Of a stretch of DNA of 47,402 nucleotides, positions 15,501 to 29,713 are shown one piece after another (position 1 is the first letter of the stretch; the number at the start of each line of letters is the position of its first letter). Made by a program: the position numbers and the translations under genes. The stretch comes from a virus. The notes under the pieces were generated by a model. It saw only the letters and a list, made by a program, of their open reading frames with translations. It ran no database searches and was not told the DNA's origin. The stretch is taken from the IMG/VR virus record IMGVR_UViG_3300044695_004323, positions 1 to 47,402 of that record. The stretch is one strand, 5' to 3'.

Positions 15501-16101
15501 CCTGCTAAACCTCTTCACGCCTGGCATGGGCAACACGCTCACGGCGCAGGTCGGCAACAGCCTCATGCGGACGGGCCAGAACATCCTGGGCCAGACCACG
15601 CCGGCCCTGAAGGGCCCGCTGGAGTACATCCTGGACCGCCAGTTCTTCACGGGCCGGCAGCTCAGCGACCTGTATTCGATGCTGGAGCATGACTTCGGCC
15701 CCATCGGACGGCCGGTGGAGCAGATCATCTCCAACGCCCCCGGCGGATCCCGTGCCCTTGGGCTGATCCGCCAGGCACGGGACGAGCGGATCAGCCCGTC
15801 TGAGCGTGCGGCCAAGATGCTGTTCAACACGCTGACCGGCATGAAGCTGCAAGACGTGGACCAGGATCGCACCGTCCGGCTTGCAGCCCGCTCCGCCCTG
15901 AACGAACTGCTCCAGCAGGCTGAGGGCGTGGGAACCTATGAGAACCTGTTCATCAAGCCTGAGGCCCTCCAGCAGCTCTCGCCGCAGGAGCAGCGGCAGT
16001 ACCTGCTGTACCGCGTGTTGCAGAGCCGAGCCGCACGGGAGGCCCGGGAGAAGAAGAAGCAGGAGCTTCAGGACCCGATGCAGATGCTGGGCATCGGCTA
16101 G
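12523..16101 (+). CDS. Giant internal virion (ejection / polyvalent) protein
   Basis: 1192 residues. Helix-rich throughout, with Gly/Ala-rich segments in the first quarter that could interact with membrane. The last 500 residues resemble the C-terminal region of phage large polyvalent proteins of the LPD38 type (SYDNFLQRFKTLALLFPSRY, later RDVIKRWVPFYSYTKGIAPL). Such proteins are packed in the capsid and injected with the DNA. The family name is from memory of pattern and is not verified. The stop codon overlaps the stop of the convergent integrase gene by four bases. Confidence 0.55.
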   Translation: MSQSPLFDMFGEDEEVLGLLPARKKRRVEDLMSEEEQASMLQNLAYAGASGLSGVGWLLDTPGSMVRGLLSEGPMKALSALWETSDDRVTGRELARQYGLAGKEDNWGNFSGGLAAEVLLDPLTYASFGLAPLLGGVAKTAAGKAATKAGLLTGDLGLMAKQIADRGARGAGYGKMALQRETPEFFIEQLRQLDPQRADDLLAQFRNVAGDQADALLNQRMSASNRISIPGIYDGATDLWDKLIPGAGDLITSQADRIGQAALANKYTGPVLRNMRGMFDSRVLGRTSEADQWRARAVTEAERLGNIDADKWIGERIPAIANEIGMERWQKNDFRRQLSDAFGLAMEKQTGTEAWRELPDEIRSLFDGGGGSMLVDEARAFQERAIQRAESLGLPLAETKLPFDIGYLTRQKVFPENPVMPKGYEAATSKAIDSGTELFGLPGEASRRDWTRAFPRWVLNKMAKDGGFQDKLRRIDSRASPEAAMTAVDDWLQDKAKDYWLQTKRNGVAGPYSYLMDDLEAGSAEATKALEKARGLYGELADSVASLPTNYSKEGLPFYGDALSDFTNYVRSRGRTERVGQTLYDELAKAAINSPNVPSFSSFTAREALQKFGLDIDAGRAVDQAGNVTQRGNAERLLQDALDRNRSMAGVNPVDAGRGDVYLDVDNLRIPQDLVESLTAGVQRARAPAEATGLLKSYDNFLQRFKTLALLFPSRYTRDGYSGSFAAATQGLFNPFDSYAGLQAGRGNYKPLARRLGPGLFRKAAPGYEDLSEEDRIIKWLSEASGQRLTDFNILDDMGRNASNLTTPDLFPGSAGPYLQGVGGKMDPRTGAFYNPFALRRRSGNPNWLLAAGDAAATASDSWNRIGTYLTAVRQGYVPEAAKAASDLTQVVYRPEAFSSFERDVIKRWVPFYSYTKGIAPLVADNLVNQPAGLMGQSIRFVNRAGEPSEDRFVPEYLRQSAAIPLGGNVPFLGLNTPGVTRFLTNIDLPHEGLLNLFTPGMGNTLTAQVGNSLMRTGQNILGQTTPALKGPLEYILDRQFFTGRQLSDLYSMLEHDFGPIGRPVEQIISNAPGGSRALGLIRQARDERISPSERAAKMLFNTLTGMKLQDVDQDRTVRLAARSALNELLQQAEGVGTYENLFIKPEALQQLSPQEQRQYLLYRVLQSRAAREAREKKKQELQDPMQMLGIG

Positions 16102-16925
16102 AGGACTGACGGCAGCGGCTCGCCGTTCAGCCCGCACTCCTCTTCGTAGAGTAGGATGTCAACGTAATGACGTTCTGCGAGCCCATCGGTCCTGTGACCC
16201 AGCTTCTGCTTGGGTGACATGCCCTTGACCTTGGCGTATGTCGCACAGCTCTTGCGGAGCGTCCGCGTTGATCCGCTCAGGCCTGCCCGCTCTACGCACT
16301 CTGCCACCCACTGCTGGATGGTGTTCAGCGCAGCGAAGTCTCCAAAGATGCGGGGACGCTTCGGCAGGGCCCTGCACGCGGCCAACGCTTCGTCGGTAAA
16401 AACCGCAACGTGCGGGGTTGACGTTTTGTTTTGCCGCACATAGATTTTGCGGCCGCGGATTTGATCCCATCGCATGTCGATGAGGTCGCCGGCGCGGAGG
16501 CCTGTGGCGTAAGCCGTCAAGAACCAGGCCTCCAAGAAGGATGCTTTCGGGAAGAGGTCATGGATAAGACCCGGCGTGCGACGAGCCGTCTCCACCAGAT
16601 GTTTGATTTCCGTGAGCGACCACGCCACGGGAAGCGGGGGTGGGACCTTGACGCGGCGGAAGCGTTCAACTATACAGGTGTTCAGACCCAAACGGCGGGC
16701 TTCGGCCATGAGGGTCGTAAGCATTCTGCGGTGGTTAGCGACTGTATTGGGGGCCAATTTGGAGAGGGCCTCAGTGAGGTAATCGTCCGCCATTTGGGTG
16801 GTCACGTTTTCGACGTGCCAGGGGAGCCGCTTAGTGAACACCAAAAGCTGCTCCAAATAGCCTGGTTTGGCCCCGATCCGGACGGCGTATCGCTTGGCAA
16901 ATTCTTGGAGTAACATTTCTTGCAC
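16098..16925 (-). CDS. int: Tyrosine recombinase / integrase
   Basis: 275 residues. The catalytic domain shows Arg144 (TGLRAGDL), Lys167 (RQNKT), Arg224 in RTLRKSCAT, His244 in LGHR and the nucleophile Tyr254 in RHYVD, ten residues after His244 as expected. The His normally at box II (HxxR) is Arg221 here, a known tolerated variation. The N-terminal 100 residues form a SAM-like core-binding domain. It is the only leftward gene between two rightward blocks, next to an intergenic stretch that may be the attachment site. Probable site-specific integration and excision of the phage. Confidence 0.85.
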   Translation of the reverse strand: MQEMLLQEFAKRYAVRIGAKPGYLEQLLVFTKRLPWHVENVTTQMADDYLTEALSKLAPNTVANHRRMLTTLMAEARRLGLNTCIVERFRRVKVPPPLPVAWSLTEIKHLVETARRTPGLIHDLFPKASFLEAWFLTAYATGLRAGDLIDMRWDQIRGRKIYVRQNKTSTPHVAVFTDEALAACRALPKRPRIFGDFAALNTIQQWVAECVERAGLSGSTRTLRKSCATYAKVKGMSPKQKLGHRTDGLAERHYVDILLYEEECGLNGEPLPSVL

Positions 16926-19060: not shown

Positions 19061-20569
19061 ATGCAGGCAAGGGATTACCAGCGGGCGTGCGTTGACGCCA
19101 TCATCGACGCCATGGCGGACGGCCATAAGGGCATCCTGGTGGATGCCTTCACGGGCGCCGGCAAGACCGTCATCTTCAGTCTCCTGGCACGGGAGTGCTT
19201 CAACTCCAAGGTGCTGATCCTGGGGCACCAGCGTGAGCTGGTCTGGCAGGCCGCCGACAAGATTGACGCCATCGTCGGTGAGGACGCCCAGGTGGAGATG
19301 GCCCAGTTCTGGGCGCAGGACGGGCGGGTCACCGTCGCCTGCACACCGACCATCATGCGGGGCCGGCACAGGCGGTTCCTGGGGCACCGGATCGTCATCG
19401 TTGACGAGGCCCACCGGCAGATGTCGGAGGCCATGCTGAGCGTCTTGCGTGAGTTCCAGGAGCATGGCGCGCACATAATCGGCTTCACGGCCACGCCGTT
19501 CCGGATGGACGGCAAGAGGCTGATGGACTTCTACGACCACCACGCCTTCTCCATGGGGTTCCAGGCCGGCATCGACCAGGGTTGGTGTGCCCCCATCAAG
19601 GCCAAGATCGTCAAGTGCAACTACCTGGACCTGAAGCGTGTCAGGGTGGTGGGCAAGGAGTATTCCGCCTCCGACTTGGACATGATCCTGGGCTGCTCCC
19701 GGGCGCTGCATCAGATGTGCCTCACGGTGCAGAAGCATCGCCGCGGCCCGGCCCTGGCGTTCCTGCCTGGCGTGAACACGGCCCAGGAGCTGGCCAAGCT
19801 GGCGAGCCGTGAGTACGGCATTCGGGCGGAGTTCATCTGCGGCGACACCGGCATCCAGCCGGAGGACGAGCGGAACCGGATTATGAACCTGTTCCGCAAG
19901 GGCGAGATCGAACTGCTGTGCAACTGCATGGTGGCAGCCGAGGGCTTCGATGCCCCGGTCGCCCGGACGGTGTTCATGTTCAGGCCGACCCGCTCCAGGA
20001 CGCTGGCCCTCCAGATCTGGGGCCGCGTCATGCGTCCCCTGCCCGGCACGGTGGATGGCCTGGAGACGCCGGAGGAGCGGCACGCGGCGATTGCCGCCAG
20101 TGCCAAGCCGGACTGCCTGATCATCGACATGACCGACTCGCTGAACGATCACAGCATCGTCACGGCCGTGGACATGTTCGCCAGGGAAGACACGCCGGAA
20201 GAGGTGCGGCGTGAGGCACGGGAGCGGGCGGCCGACGAGGACGCCGAGCCGGAAGGCCCAGAGGACCTGATCGCCCAGGCGGCTGAGAAGCTCCGCAAGG
20301 CCAAGCTCCTGGAGGAAGGTCTGGCTCTGCTGCATGGCCGGGCTGCCGGTGAGTTGCATGACCAGGACGTGACGGTCGCCGGCAAGAAGAAGTGCATCTC
20401 TGAATACAAGGTCCCCATCCGGGGCAAGTTCGCTGGTCGCACCATGGGAGAGGTTGACGATGGATTCATCGAATGGGCACTACGCAACCCCGCCATCAAA
20501 GGCTGGCAGCGGTCCTACTTCAGCCGAGAGCGTCAGAGACGACGCACTCTTGCAAGACACGTTGGATGA
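19061..20569 (+). CDS. SF2 DEAD/DEAH-box helicase
   Basis: 502 residues from the ATG preceded by GGAGGG; an upstream ATG at 19025 lies inside the hairpin. Motifs are complete: Walker A TGAGKT (31-36), motif II DEAH (115-118), motif III TATP (143-146) and motif VI QIWGRVMR (318-325). This is the architecture of phage replication/recombination helicases related to UvsW and RecG-like proteins. The basic C-terminal tail (RSYFSRERQRRRTLA) overlaps the start of the next gene by about 110 bases. Confidence 0.85.
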   Translation: MQARDYQRACVDAIIDAMADGHKGILVDAFTGAGKTVIFSLLARECFNSKVLILGHQRELVWQAADKIDAIVGEDAQVEMAQFWAQDGRVTVACTPTIMRGRHRRFLGHRIVIVDEAHRQMSEAMLSVLREFQEHGAHIIGFTATPFRMDGKRLMDFYDHHAFSMGFQAGIDQGWCAPIKAKIVKCNYLDLKRVRVVGKEYSASDLDMILGCSRALHQMCLTVQKHRRGPALAFLPGVNTAQELAKLASREYGIRAEFICGDTGIQPEDERNRIMNLFRKGEIELLCNCMVAAEGFDAPVARTVFMFRPTRSRTLALQIWGRVMRPLPGTVDGLETPEERHAAIAASAKPDCLIIDMTDSLNDHSIVTAVDMFAREDTPEEVRREARERAADEDAEPEGPEDLIAQAAEKLRKAKLLEEGLALLHGRAAGELHDQDVTVAGKKKCISEYKVPIRGKFAGRTMGEVDDGFIEWALRNPAIKGWQRSYFSRERQRRRTLARHVG

Positions 20570-22704: not shown

Positions 22705-23303
22705 ACGCCGACATCCCTTACCTCCGATGCTGGGTCAGGCTCCCCTACGTGGCCAACCGGATTGGCCTGGAGGAGGGCTACGCCTTCGCCATCCAGTCCT
22801 ATCCCGGGCGGGCCCTGGCATTCCATGTGATGCTGAAGAGCGGCGCCCACTACCGCGGCGTGCCGATCCACGCCCTGGCCCTGAACAATGAGGCGCCGGC
22901 CAGGCCGCTGCACCATTGTCAGCTCTGGGACTGCTTTACATTCCGCCCGGTGGTCCATGTATTCCGGTATCTCCAGGACCATGAGGCCCTGTGTTACACC
23001 CGCGGCGGGACGGTAGGCGGCACCTACCTGTTCACAGTGGACTGGCTGCCGGATGACGCCGGGCCAGGATTCACGCACCGCCCCGAGCAGAACAAGTGCG
23101 CCCACGTCATGGCCCTGGACGACGGGAACCTGGCGGCGTTGCCGACCAACCGCATCGCCTTCAAGGACGGCTACTTCATCGGCAGCGCGCCGAGCCCGCG
23201 TGCCAAGGGGTACGTGGTCCAGGATCAGATCTGGCAGGCGGAGGACTGCTCCCAGTTCGATGCCAGCACCGATGACAACTACATCTATGAGGACGAGCGA
23301 TGA
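22701..23303 (+). CDS. Hypothetical protein, 200 aa
   Basis: A beta-rich, aromatic-rich soluble protein (YLRCWVRLPYVANRIGLEEG, HHCQLWDCFTFRPVVHVFRY, YLFTVDWLPDDAGPGFTHR). It contains several His and Cys residues but no recognised catalytic pattern. ATGA overlaps at both ends show that it belongs to a tight operon. Function unknown. Confidence 0.6.
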   Translation: MNADIPYLRCWVRLPYVANRIGLEEGYAFAIQSYPGRALAFHVMLKSGAHYRGVPIHALALNNEAPARPLHHCQLWDCFTFRPVVHVFRYLQDHEALCYTRGGTVGGTYLFTVDWLPDDAGPGFTHRPEQNKCAHVMALDDGNLAALPTNRIAFKDGYFIGSAPSPRAKGYVVQDQIWQAEDCSQFDASTDDNYIYEDER

Positions 23304-23368
23304 TCACCTTCCTTGGCCTCACCTTCGCCGTTGTAGTCGCCCTGGCGTATCGCTGGCGCTACATCTGA
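23300..23368 (+). CDS. Membrane micro-protein, 22 aa
   Basis: A 22-codon frame starting in an ATGA overlap and ending in TGA. It encodes one hydrophobic segment (MITFLGLTFAVVVALAYRW) with a basic end, consistent with a single-pass membrane peptide. Similar tiny coupled genes occur at 2467, 29710 and 32096, which supports it. Function unknown. Confidence 0.45.
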   Translation: MITFLGLTFAVVVALAYRWRYI

Positions 23369-23404
23369 CCGTACACGCGGTGCCATCATTTTCTGGCAGC
23401 TGAA

Positions 23405-23650
23405 CACCGCATTAGAAATCAACGCAGCGCCAGCCTAATGAAAGCCGGCCGAACGCCGGAGCGGCTAGTCCGCAGAAGTCAGCGTGGTCCGTGCGAAACC
23501 CCAGGCTCCGGGCTGGTACTAGATCCAGCGAACACCCCTACGTCCTGGTCGATAGCCGAGACAACCCCAGATAAGACGGCACCACGCCGCAGGCAACCAA
23601 GCCACCGGAAGGGCGAATCCCCCTTCTCGGCAGGGAAGGGGTCTGGAGAT
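23405..23650 (+). ncRNA. Strongly structured putative RNA upstream of the HNH gene
   Basis: Stems seen: CATTAG/CTAATG (23410-23415 with 23435-23440), CCGGC/GCCGG (23445/23455), GCGG/CCGC (23461/23470), GCTGG/CCAGC (23512/23525), a terminal CCCCTTC/GAAGGGG hairpin (23620/23635), and a long-range helix of 11 pairs with one bulge joining 23482-23492 to 23576-23587. The 3' strand of that helix directly follows CAGATAAG, and GATAGCCGA lies just before. That arrangement recalls HEARO/omega RNAs that precede IscB-type HNH genes; a group I intron remnant is the main alternative. No convincing coding signal lies in this stretch, although the HNH frame happens to be open through it. Confidence 0.5.
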
Positions 23651-23665
23651 ACCGCGTTGGCACGG

Positions 23666-24058
23666 ATGAATAAGCAGCAGCAGGCGGAGTGCATGGAGTG
23701 GGTCCAGCTGCACCGCTGCTGTGCGATCTGCTGGTGGCCTGAGGGTGACGGGCGCAGGGCCCTGCACGTTCACCACATCTGCGGTGGCCCGGCCCGCAAG
23801 CATGACATCAGGAATTACTGCCGGCTCTGCTCACGCTGCCATGAGGTTCTCCATTCAGGTCGCCTTGCGGGTAACTATCCCGACCTGAACAATAGTGCAG
23901 TGCTGTGGGCGAAGCAGGAGAGCGACCCGGACAACTTCGATCCGGACTTCCTGGCCAGCCTGCGGCACCGCAAGTGGCTGGGCTACGACCCGGAGCCGCC
24001 CGACCAGTGGTACCTGGACGAGCGGCAGACAAACCTGAGCAAGGCACGGAAGCCATGA
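23666..24058 (+). CDS. HNH endonuclease
   Basis: 130 residues. A zinc-stabilised HNH core is visible: Cys19/Cys22 (CAIC), HVHH with His36-His37, and CRLCSRCHEVLH with Cys55, Cys58, His59 and His63. The start is taken as the ATG at 23666; a TTG at 23657 has a better-placed GGAG. There is no RuvC domain, so it is not a full IscB. It directly follows the structured RNA and is ATGA-coupled to the next gene. It could be a free-standing homing nuclease, a packaging-type nuclease or an RNA-associated enzyme. Confidence 0.7.
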   Translation: MNKQQQAECMEWVQLHRCCAICWWPEGDGRRALHVHHICGGPARKHDIRNYCRLCSRCHEVLHSGRLAGNYPDLNNSAVLWAKQESDPDNFDPDFLASLRHRKWLGYDPEPPDQWYLDERQTNLSKARKP

Positions 24059-24321
24059 TCTGTCACAGGATTGACGACGTGTTTGACGAGCTGTCGGAAG
24101 TGAACCCGGACGCCCTCCTGGCGGACGGCCTGGAAGACGCCTACCTGGGGTACGTGATCAACACCCGCCACAAGAGCGTGGCGGTGTACGACGCAGACAA
24201 GTGCGTGGAAATCATGATGCGGGACGGCCTGACTGAAGAAGAGGCCCTGGAATACCTGGAGTTCAACACCTTCTGCGCCTACGTGGGCGAAGACGGCCCA
24301 CTCTTTGTGAAGGGATCCTGA
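24055..24321 (+). CDS. Hypothetical protein, 88 aa
   Basis: ATGA-coupled to the HNH gene. Acidic and helical (DDVFDELSEVNPDALLADGL, then MMRDGLTEEEALEYLEFNTF). The pattern TEEEALEYLEFN with an aromatic tail resembles small phage proteins of unknown role. Its last base is shared with the ATG of the next gene. Confidence 0.6.
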   Translation: MICHRIDDVFDELSEVNPDALLADGLEDAYLGYVINTRHKSVAVYDADKCVEIMMRDGLTEEEALEYLEFNTFCAYVGEDGPLFVKGS

Positions 24322-24824
24322 TGGGCAGGGCCCAGCGGCAGAAGGGGAAGCGTGGCGAGCGGGCGGCGGCCAAGGCCGTGTCGTCGGCGCTGCGGGTAAA
24401 CGCCCGGCGGGGCGTCCAGTTCAAGGGCGGGGCCGACTCGGCGGACATTGAAGTAGAGATCCCGGGCGTCCACTGGGAAGTCAAGTTTGTGGAGCGTGAG
24501 TCAGTGCGGACCTGGATGGCCCAGGCCCAGGCTGAGTGCGGTGGCGGCGTGCCGGTGGTGCTGCACAAGCGGAGCCGTGAGGAATGGCTGGTGACCTTGC
24601 CACTGGAGCGGCTGTATGAGTTCGTCCAGCGACTGGAGGAGGCTGCTGGTCAAACGCTTCAAGCGTTGGGCGGAGCGGAAGTTTCCCGTGAACTTCCCGC
24701 TGAGGTACTACCTGCGGGCGCCGCAGCGGCTGCCCGGGATGCACGGGTATTTCCAGTACGAGGAGGACGACGAGCGGGGGGTGATCGTTGTCGCAGACAA
24801 CTCCCCGGCCGACGTGTTGATTGA
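24321..24824 (+). CDS. Holliday-junction-resolvase-like PD-(D/E)XK nuclease
   Basis: The first 110 residues match the Hjc/VRR-type fold: KGKRGERAAAKAVSSAL with a conserved Glu, GGADSADIEV with the metal Asp, and WEVKF as the (D/E)xK motif. A helical end follows (LERLYEFVQRLEEA). The last 55 residues are Ala/Arg/Gly-rich and overlap the next gene by about 209 bases in another frame, so they may be a stop drift rather than a domain. Likely resolves recombination intermediates made by the exonuclease/ERF system. Confidence 0.65.
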   Translation: MGRAQRQKGKRGERAAAKAVSSALRVNARRGVQFKGGADSADIEVEIPGVHWEVKFVERESVRTWMAQAQAECGGGVPVVLHKRSREEWLVTLPLERLYEFVQRLEEAAGQTLQALGGAEVSRELPAEVLPAGAAAAARDARVFPVRGGRRAGGDRCRRQLPGRRVD

Positions 24825-24954
24825 CACCCTATGCGAGGAGCTAGCGCATGCCCGAACCACTCACCTCTGCACTGAAGATGAAGACCCCCACACTGCCAGT
24901 TTCTGGGCTGAGTACGGACGAATCGTCATGGCCGCACGGGAACACAGATGGTGA
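24616..24954 (+). CDS. SprT-like metallopeptidase-type protein, degenerate motif
   Basis: 112 residues. The segment VLIDTLCEELAHARTTH resembles the HExxH zinc motif of SprT/ImmA-like peptidases, but the first His is Glu (EELAH, 74-78), so zinc binding may be altered. His83 and His92 could act as further ligands. The N-terminus is basic. It overlaps the nuclease gene upstream by 209 bases and the next gene by 107 bases in different frames. Activity is doubtful. Confidence 0.55.
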   Translation: MSSSSDWRRLLVKRFKRWAERKFPVNFPLRYYLRAPQRLPGMHGYFQYEEDDERGVIVVADNSPADVLIDTLCEELAHARTTHLCTEDEDPHTASFWAEYGRIVMAAREHRW

Positions 24955-28550: not shown

Positions 28551-29382
28551 ATATGCTGACATGGTCACGGTGGTGGCCCGGTGCTTCGTCCAGAACAGGC
28601 CGTCATGGCAGCGTTCTGGACTGATCCCGGAGCTGGAAGGCGAAGGGTATCTCGCCCTGTGCCGCGCCGCCCGCACCTACAACCCGGCCCTGCTGCCGTA
28701 CCCCAAGGCCTACTTCGCCAGGGCCATTCTCAACGCCATGCTAAAGAGCATCCGCCGCCTGACCCGCACGCCAGGGGACCGGGTGGGCCTGGACGTAGCG
28801 GAGCAGGAGGCGGCGATCTTCGACCAGCGGGACGACCTGGCCGACGCCATCGCCGGGATGGACGAACGGGACAAGGCGATGGCGATCTGCCGCTTCATCA
28901 GGAAGCAGCGGATCGTTGACCTGGCGGCGGAGTTTCAGCTGAATATCCGCTCAGCGTCCCTGGCATCACGTCGCCTAGCAAGGCAGATCGGGCAACGATT
29001 GGGAATCCCAGACGAGCAGCCTGTGCCAGGTTGTGAATCTCCGACAGGGAATACCAGACGCCTTTCCCCGGGTCGGTGTGTTTCTTCCCAGGCTTCGTCA
29101 CCCGCTCCCGCATCAGCGTCCAGCCGATCTGCCGGTAAGACTGGCCCTCGTCAGCCATCGTCGCCACCCGCTCAGCCAAAGACCGCTCGGCCAGGCAAGG
29201 GACGTAGCGGGCATCCCGCCCCTTCCCCTGCTTCAGCCACCCGTAAGGACGAGCGCCGCCGTAAGGCCGCCCGTGCTTGCGTAGATAGGCGGCAATCTCC
29301 CGGGTCCGCTGGCCGATCATCTCCCGTTCAAACTCAGCGAACGAAGCCAGCTGGTGGAAAAACATCCGGCCGGCGGGGGTAG
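28501..29382 (+). CDS. Sigma-70-like RNA polymerase factor
   Basis: The first 170 residues carry the pattern of a small sigma factor: region 2 at about 43-90 (ELEGEGYLALCRAARTYNPA, then YFARAILNAMLKSIRRL) and region 4 HTH at about 113-168 (RIVDLAAEFQLNIRSASLAS). The remaining 120 residues are Ser/Pro/Arg-rich and lie antisense to the serine recombinase gene, so they are probably read-through rather than a domain. Such phage factors redirect host polymerase, here probably to late genes. Convergent overlap with the recombinase gene is 485 bases. Confidence 0.6.
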   Translation: MSKRSRLSKKQQLLVTEYADMVTVVARCFVQNRPSWQRSGLIPELEGEGYLALCRAARTYNPALLPYPKAYFARAILNAMLKSIRRLTRTPGDRVGLDVAEQEAAIFDQRDDLADAIAGMDERDKAMAICRFIRKQRIVDLAAEFQLNIRSASLASRRLARQIGQRLGIPDEQPVPGCESPTGNTRRLSPGRCVSSQASSPAPASASSRSAGKTGPRQPSSPPAQPKTARPGKGRSGHPAPSPASATRKDERRRKAARACVDRRQSPGSAGRSSPVQTQRTKPAGGKTSGRRG

Positions 29383-29713
29383 CCAGGTCGATGCCCAGGT
29401 CCATGATGATGCACCTGATGCCCCGCTCCTGCCAGCAGTGAACCGTGTCGGCAGCGTCACGCACGCTGCGGAAGACTCTGTCAACCTTGTTGAAGACCAG
29501 CGTGTCGCCTGGATCCATGGAGTCCCAGAGCAGCCTGCCCTGCGGCCGGTTGCGGAGCGGGACGCGGGCCGTGACATCCTCGTCTACGAAGATGTGGGCA
29601 ACGTCCAGGTCCTCCTTCTTGGCCAGGTCCATGATCTTCTCACGCTGGTTCTCAACGCTGTTCTCCTGGTCATCGGTGCTGACGCGGACGTATCCCCACA
29701 GCCTGCCCATCAT
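28898..29713 (-). CDS. Serine recombinase (resolvase/invertase family)
   Basis: 271 residues. The N-terminal catalytic domain has the nucleophile Ser12 in YVRVSTDDQ, the family motif KVDRVFRSVRDAADT, and the helix FHQLASFAEFEREMIGQRT. The C-terminal part has a short HTH-like DNA-binding region (GQSYRQIGWTLMRERVTK, WYSLSEI). The last 30 residues are antisense to region 4 of the sigma-like gene. It is the last gene of the leftward operon. It could invert a tail or promoter segment, resolve multimers or integrate the phage; no matching sites were identified. Confidence 0.8.
   Translation of the reverse strand: MMGRLWGYVRVSTDDQENSVENQREKIMDLAKKEDLDVAHIFVDEDVTARVPLRNRPQGRLLWDSMDPGDTLVFNKVDRVFRSVRDAADTVHCWQERGIRCIIMDLGIDLATPAGRMFFHQLASFAEFEREMIGQRTREIAAYLRKHGRPYGGARPYGWLKQGKGRDARYVPCLAERSLAERVATMADEGQSYRQIGWTLMRERVTKPGKKHTDPGKGVWYSLSEIHNLAQAARLGFPIVARSALLGDVMPGTLSGYSAETPPPGQRSAAS

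Follow-up and report, generated by a model that had tools for sequence, protein, structure and literature searches.

The window, a stretch of 47,402 nucleotides from the linear IMG/VR virus record IMGVR_UViG_3300044695_004323, encodes at 23377-23642 (+) a multi-pseudoknot RNA of approximately 265 nt. The RNA is conserved, and nine or more of its helices are supported, including three pseudoknots (H2, H8, and H10); we put the probability of this structure, and of the membership of 23377-23642 in an RNA family, above 0.95. In our reading of the sequence, a 22-aa ORF (23301-23369) is followed by the noncoding stretch and a 130-aa HNH ORF. The RNA occupies the interval from the stop codon of one gene to the start of the next, both in the window and in the majority of the relatives examined. 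A first-pass annotation of this DNA had proposed a structured RNA directly 5′ of the HNH gene. The RNA is real, its placement was confirmed in the window, where RNA and gene have the same orientation, and the listed stems sit where they had been drawn; the 5′ end lies about 28 nt farther upstream than proposed, at 23377 with the H1/H2 pseudoknot, the 3′ end is near 23642, and the pseudoknots H8 (23555-23561/23625-23631) and H10 (23535-23539/23637-23641) had been overlooked. The minimum-free-energy fold was ordinary (z = -0.85), a score that is uninformative for an RNA with pseudoknots; the decision was therefore rested on relatives, in which covariation was far above controls.

Homologous loci were retrieved from IMG/VR by HNH protein search and DNA-pattern search. 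In the first alignment the left-hand gene varied, the noncoding stretch was conserved, and whole helix strands were altered in step. The following features were assigned.

23377..23642 (+), whole structured RNA, family A subtype A1; covariation (12 + 16 relatives) and covariance model R1 matches in two independent searches
23377-23382 with 23405-23410 (+), H1; pairing maintained via GACGGTGC/GCACCGTC, CGTGC/GCACG, CCGCTGC/GCAGCGG, and others
23393-23397 with 23429-23433 (+), H2, 5′ pseudoknot; 5′ strand inside the H1 loop
23445-23449 with 23455-23459 (+), H3 hairpin; compensatory U-A/G-C and others
23461..23473 (+), H4 hairpin GCGG[CTAGT]CCGC; C-G, A-U, and U-A all seen at one pair
23482-23492 with 23576-23587 (+), H5 long-range helix; 11 pairs, C23580 bulged
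23501-23505 with 23544-23548 (+), H6; A-U replaced by G-C in five of the 12 relatives
23512-23516 with 23525-23529 (+), H7 hairpin with conserved loop TANTNGAT; one position with four pair types
23535-23539 (CCCCT) with 23637-23641 (AGGGG) (+), H10 pseudoknot; compensatory strand changes in relatives
23555-23561 with 23625-23631 (+), H8 pseudoknot; 84 of 84 cells paired (12 sequences) and 13 two-sided changes, with H8 aligned separately after its misalignment in the first alignment
23571..23575 (+), ATAAG, unpaired, ahead of the 3′ strand of H5; alignment columns invariant
23592..23603 (+), H11, small hairpin GGC/GCC after H5, judged by eye
23605..23629 (+), H9 terminal hairpin; rivals H8 for strand 23625-23631
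23657..24058 (+), HNH endonuclease gene; PF01844 (E 2.9e-4) and PHROG 8048 (E 1.8e-5)

The first-pass annotation had suggested a search for covariation in related loci, and covariation was found. In the main alignment (MAFFT, 12 members, built independently of any structure; 53 pairs scored), 86.2% of the base-pair cells were paired, compared with 33-48% when partners were slid by 1-3 columns. Two-sided changes occurred in 71 cells versus 23.6 in shuffles, and 0 of 500 shuffles reached 71; since the member sequences are kin, such shuffle and permutation counts are not strict probabilities, and among the controls the slid-partner comparison weighs most. A wider core set of 16 members gave 90.9% paired cells versus 31-46% after sliding, and 73 versus 24.7 two-sided cells. 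H2, H3, H4, H6, H7, and H10 each showed at least one two-sided change in the 12-member alignment, and the H10 strands read CCCCA/TGGGG (L134), CCCCC/GGGGG (L137), CCCAT/ATGGG (L116), and CCCGGC/GCCGGG (subtype A2). By eye, H11 takes the forms GCCA/TGGC, GGCC/GGCC, GCCC/GGGC, and GCCAA/TTGGC in relatives. An initial permutation test, for which strands had been picked by hand, was selection-biased and was not relied upon. When strands were swapped between phages, own pairing exceeded swapped pairing for H2 (86 versus 52; 0 of 5000 swaps reached 86), H8 (113 versus 70), and the H9 competitor (74 versus 59; 0 of 2000), in tests that lean slightly toward the structure because a motif served to locate the strands. 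The 84 of 84 cells of H8 carry the same slight lean, for the same reason.

A conserved protein-coding frame across the region had been named as one of the results that would speak against the RNA. The frame of ORF 23438-24058 does stay open over 206 codons in the window, but all other relatives carry stops in all three frames together with frame-breaking indels of 1, 2, and 4 nt; the chance that the stretch encodes a conserved protein is negligible, and its non-coding status was upheld.

The 11-pair long-range helix that had been proposed right after CAGATAAG (23568-23575) is proven by compensatory changes, with 10 of 11 pairs changed on both sides. The motifs that had been emphasized beside it fared less well: ATAGC is not conserved, and the invariance within CAGATAAG is limited to ATAAG. 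A terminal hairpin precedes the HNH gene as described, but it is composed of GAAGGG/CCCTTC (6 bp) plus CCG/CGG instead of a clean 7-bp stem. The 3′ strand 23625-23631 has two mutually exclusive partners, the internal strand 23555-23561 (H8) or a local strand (H9), and in most members the local strand is similar to the H8 5′ strand and able to form a hairpin with the same partner. Judged from the sequences, the 3′ end of the RNA is thus bistable, both alternative helices being supported; H8 is the better supported since L110 is devoid of the outer part of H9.

Covariance model R1, built on the RNA core, detected the RNA in 18 of 67 loci with an HNH relative (duplicates counted). A pattern scan independent of the HNH gene yielded many further members, confirmed by R1 at E values of 1e-9 to 1e-27. 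After merging of duplicates by eye, the family comprises approximately 25 distinct lineages of uncultured phages, about 18 of subtype A1 (the type of the window) and seven of subtype A2, which differs from A1 in the sequence of the core and the 3′ domain. INPHARED phages and PLSDB plasmids contained no relatives of the RNA, of the HNH protein, or of another phage protein from the window. The single match in a pattern scan of GTDB genomes (L103) was a chance match in protein-coding sequence; eight further pattern matches (L005, L006, L008, L011, L012, L013, L201, L228) were likewise rejected as chance, with coding-like surroundings or other motifs missing. The whole window gave no Rfam match at gathering thresholds and only chance matches at E ≤ 10 within 23000-24600. 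At E ≤ 10, none of 11 family members (the window and 10 others) matched any Rfam model, among them those for HEARO and group I introns, and the HEARO model had no match in G000.

The HNH gene had been given as 130 aa, which is correct from ATG 23666; the start is probably TTG 23657 because relatives begin with MARM or VARM there, using ATG or GTG. Its product is a small single-domain protein whose nearest solved structure is McrA-like (E 0.017), and NCBIfam and PADLOC searches gave no match. PF01844 is the only Pfam match, in agreement with the earlier statement that a RuvC domain is absent; for a comparison with IshB, the HNH-only OMEGA protein that combines HNH with a PLMP domain, Pfam shows HNH only. 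With the IscB-family model, none of 11 records had a match over the curated cut-off. G011 carries a second HNH (G011:C1:6046-6183, -) that scores higher than the syntenic one against the HNH portion of the IscB model (E 3.5e-9), still far under the cut-off. The HNH gene of the window is followed by small genes for a member of PHROG 13182, a group annotated as unknown function (24058-24318), for a PDDEXK_15 nuclease (24321-24824), and for a product with a weak SprT-like match (24616-24954); L004, L046, and L062 also have ORFs akin to these behind their HNH genes. Two recombinase genes are found elsewhere in the window (16098-16925 and 28898-29713, both on the - strand), one matching phage integrases (phrog_1) and the other matching phrog_95 integrase/DNA invertase.

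The HNH gene typically lies zero to three genes downstream of the RNA on the same strand. It follows the RNA immediately in the window and several relatives; elsewhere the two are separated by a gene that is QSregVF_b-like, endonuclease VII-like, or unassigned. In G001 (L010) the RNA is located at 20068 and the HNH gene at 2776 on the opposite strand, approximately 17 kb apart. An HNH relative was present in 19 of 20 records picked via the RNA sequence, nearly all by RNA pattern alone; conversely, among 49 records picked nearly all by HNH, 38 lacked any R1 match at E ≤ 1, and another had a chance-level match only. Thus, RNA and HNH gene are syntenic neighbors, conserved as such within a single phage group, and not an obligate pair.

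The RNAs are exchangeable intergenic cassettes that belong to family A or to a second class unrelated in sequence. L110 and L112 are approximately 98% identical on both flanks of the slot and carry unrelated RNAs inside it: the A1 RNA of L110 (2710-2992) is swapped for a class B RNA in L112 (2729-2992), with the switch points at the final codons/stop of the preceding gene and at the HNH start codon. L117 (2362-2700) and L119 (2694-3010) have the 5′ half of the RNA in common and then diverge into A2 and A1; their HNH proteins are 95% identical and the gene behind the RNA differs. From these sequences we conclude that recombination took place inside the RNA, leaving the same 5′ domain with a different 3′ domain. 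To our knowledge, based on a search limited to open-licence papers, an exchangeable slot holding unrelated RNAs has no earlier description. Near-identical phages that differ at the slot by the RNA cassette alone are a natural experiment, and function is therefore directly testable by cassette swapping.

Class B is a second large, structured-looking RNA occupying the same slot in phages without family A, and with a strict motif it was found upstream of HNH in at least 21 of 45 loci lacking RNA A. Examples, among others, are as follows.

L112 2729-2992, class B RNA, with only the 3′ half shared
L123 2667-2946, class B RNA
L126 2345-2703, class B RNA
L166 2686-2986, class B RNA

Its motifs are arranged in the order GGCCTGAAG-TCGGCCCCCCGCC ... 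GAGGGGGC ... GACTCC ... GGGAGTC, and by eye the 3′ layout is that of family A (GACTCC inside; GACTTCC...GGGAGTC at the end). Six class B loci had no Rfam match. The terminal hairpin is flanked by a phage-group-specific direct repeat of approximately 6-13 nt (GGCTCC-x-R ... CACC-x-R), the longest match averaging 9.0 within the own locus and 5.6 across loci.

The first-pass annotation had raised the possibility of a minimal HNH-plus-RNA pair; in such a pair the RNA would be an omega-RNA-like guide or scaffold of the adjacent nuclease. The frequent downstream HNH gene agrees with such a role, but the RNA also precedes non-HNH genes, many phages have further genes between RNA and HNH, and the distance of 17 kb in G001 also speaks against a partnership. 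A1, A2, and B RNAs each adjoin near-identical HNH genes (90-99% protein identity). The strongest argument against a pair is provided by L110 and L112: an HNH protein needing a cognate RNA should stay coupled to it, yet here the HNH proteins are 99% identical and the RNA has been replaced. No variable 5′ guide was seen; in the three loci compared (L114, L117, L119) the 5′ flank upstream of the RNA is shared, and guide-like direct repeats showed no clear excess in the 10 family A sequences that passed the filter. The missing HEARO match and the lack of RuvC and IscB point the same way as the cassette swaps, and a guide or scaffold role for the HNH protein is quite improbable.

The alternative raised originally, a group I intron remnant, can be extended to an intact intron or a related ribozyme. 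HNH genes often ride in introns, and the helix order H5-H6-H7-H8-H5′-H9-H8′ loosely resembles the topology P3-P4-P5-P7-P3′-P8-P7′. However, neither RF00028 nor other intron models matched at E ≤ 10, P6 is missing, and a linker of at least 8 nt separates H8 from H5′. The element also lies between whole genes and interrupts none, the L110/L112 exchange spanning stop codon to start codon, and we regard an intron, a remnant, or a related ribozyme as very improbable. As HEARO membership is not supported and group I fails on both model and context, the RNA family is new; well supported and with three pseudoknots, it is absent from Rfam 15. Its kind, a large phage-borne structured RNA, is already known.

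For the function of the RNA we tentatively favor, at a little less than even odds, a cis-acting operon element. The RNA would act within the operon transcript, where H1-H4, forming the 5′ domain, and the core helices H5-H7 and H10 may fold into a compact globule. At the 3′ end, 23625-23631 would be paired either into the core (H8) or locally (H9), one state excluding the other, and this choice could govern later events on the transcript, such as readthrough, processing, or translation of the following genes, in a manner akin to put-type antitermination RNAs or regulatory leaders. The HNH gene would then be a downstream or neighboring gene and not the protein partner of the RNA. A convincing sigma70-like promoter upstream of the RNA was not found in 24 phages, which is a weak argument since phages may use other promoters; together with the filling of the intergenic gap, it is consistent with an element that works on the transcript of which it is part and has a switchable 3′ end. 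The fold is more elaborate than simple cis regulation requires, which counts against the cis-acting reading.

A trans-acting RNA is a plausible alternative that we rate somewhat lower: processed from the operon transcript or made from its own unrecognized promoter, the free RNA would act upon machinery of the host or the phage, for instance in a counter-defence or takeover role, and cassette swaps would then reflect changing targets. Three pseudoknots plus conserved loops, the indifference to the identity of the gene that follows, and the clean substitution by an unrelated RNA between approximately 98% identical phages are in line with this proposal. In L010, L134, and L137, moreover, a good sigma70-type promoter follows the RNA and precedes the gene behind it, so that the RNA there is not the leader of the transcript from that promoter; these three phages speak against the cis-acting reading and fit a separate RNA better. 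Against a trans-acting RNA stand the lack of a detectable promoter or terminator and the occupation of the entire stop-to-start gap.

Beyond the cis-acting reading, the exchange data allow a bolder view that we consider rather unlikely. One slot would accommodate A1, A2, or B, interchangeable RNAs that are unrelated, each contain multiple pseudoknots, and have a bistable 3′ end in common. They would be functional "specificity" molecules that phages trade as whole cassettes, and the variable repeat of class B might even be a recognition sequence.

Among known systems, the omega RNAs of HEARO/IscB/IsrB (RF02033) share with this RNA its large size, the presence of pseudoknots, and a position 5′ of a gene that encodes HNH. 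In OgeuIscB, GATAAG precedes the nexus 3′ strand; here ATAAG precedes a long-range helix strand. Published omega RNAs contain a nexus stem together with a nexus pseudoknot, in which a C-rich loop pairs with G's directly behind the stem (OgeuIscB, PMC9640706; DtIsrB, PMC9581776), the G strand of OgeuIscB being G155-G158 (PMC9640706). The C-rich stretch with downstream G's in our RNA is loosely comparable to this nexus pseudoknot (PMC9640706), but the H10 G strand follows the terminal hairpin. With no model match, no RuvC/IscB, no guide seen, and a non-obligate HNH pairing, the resemblance may be convergence or remote kinship, and it serves as a warning that not every RNA before an HNH gene is an IscB-like guide system. 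GOLLD is phage-associated. Like GOLLD, ROOL, and OLE, family A is a large ornate RNA of a kind whose function is unknown or partly known (PMC12286853); it differs from them in its size of approximately 265 nt, its fold, the lack of an Rfam match, and its swapping as an intergenic cassette. The put antitermination RNAs of HK022-type phages are likewise folded RNAs inside a phage operon. They are approximately 70 nt long and lie near a promoter, other lambdoid phages having a different antitermination module at the equivalent place. Compared with put, family A is longer (approximately 265 nt), and a role in antitermination would be an analogy to it.
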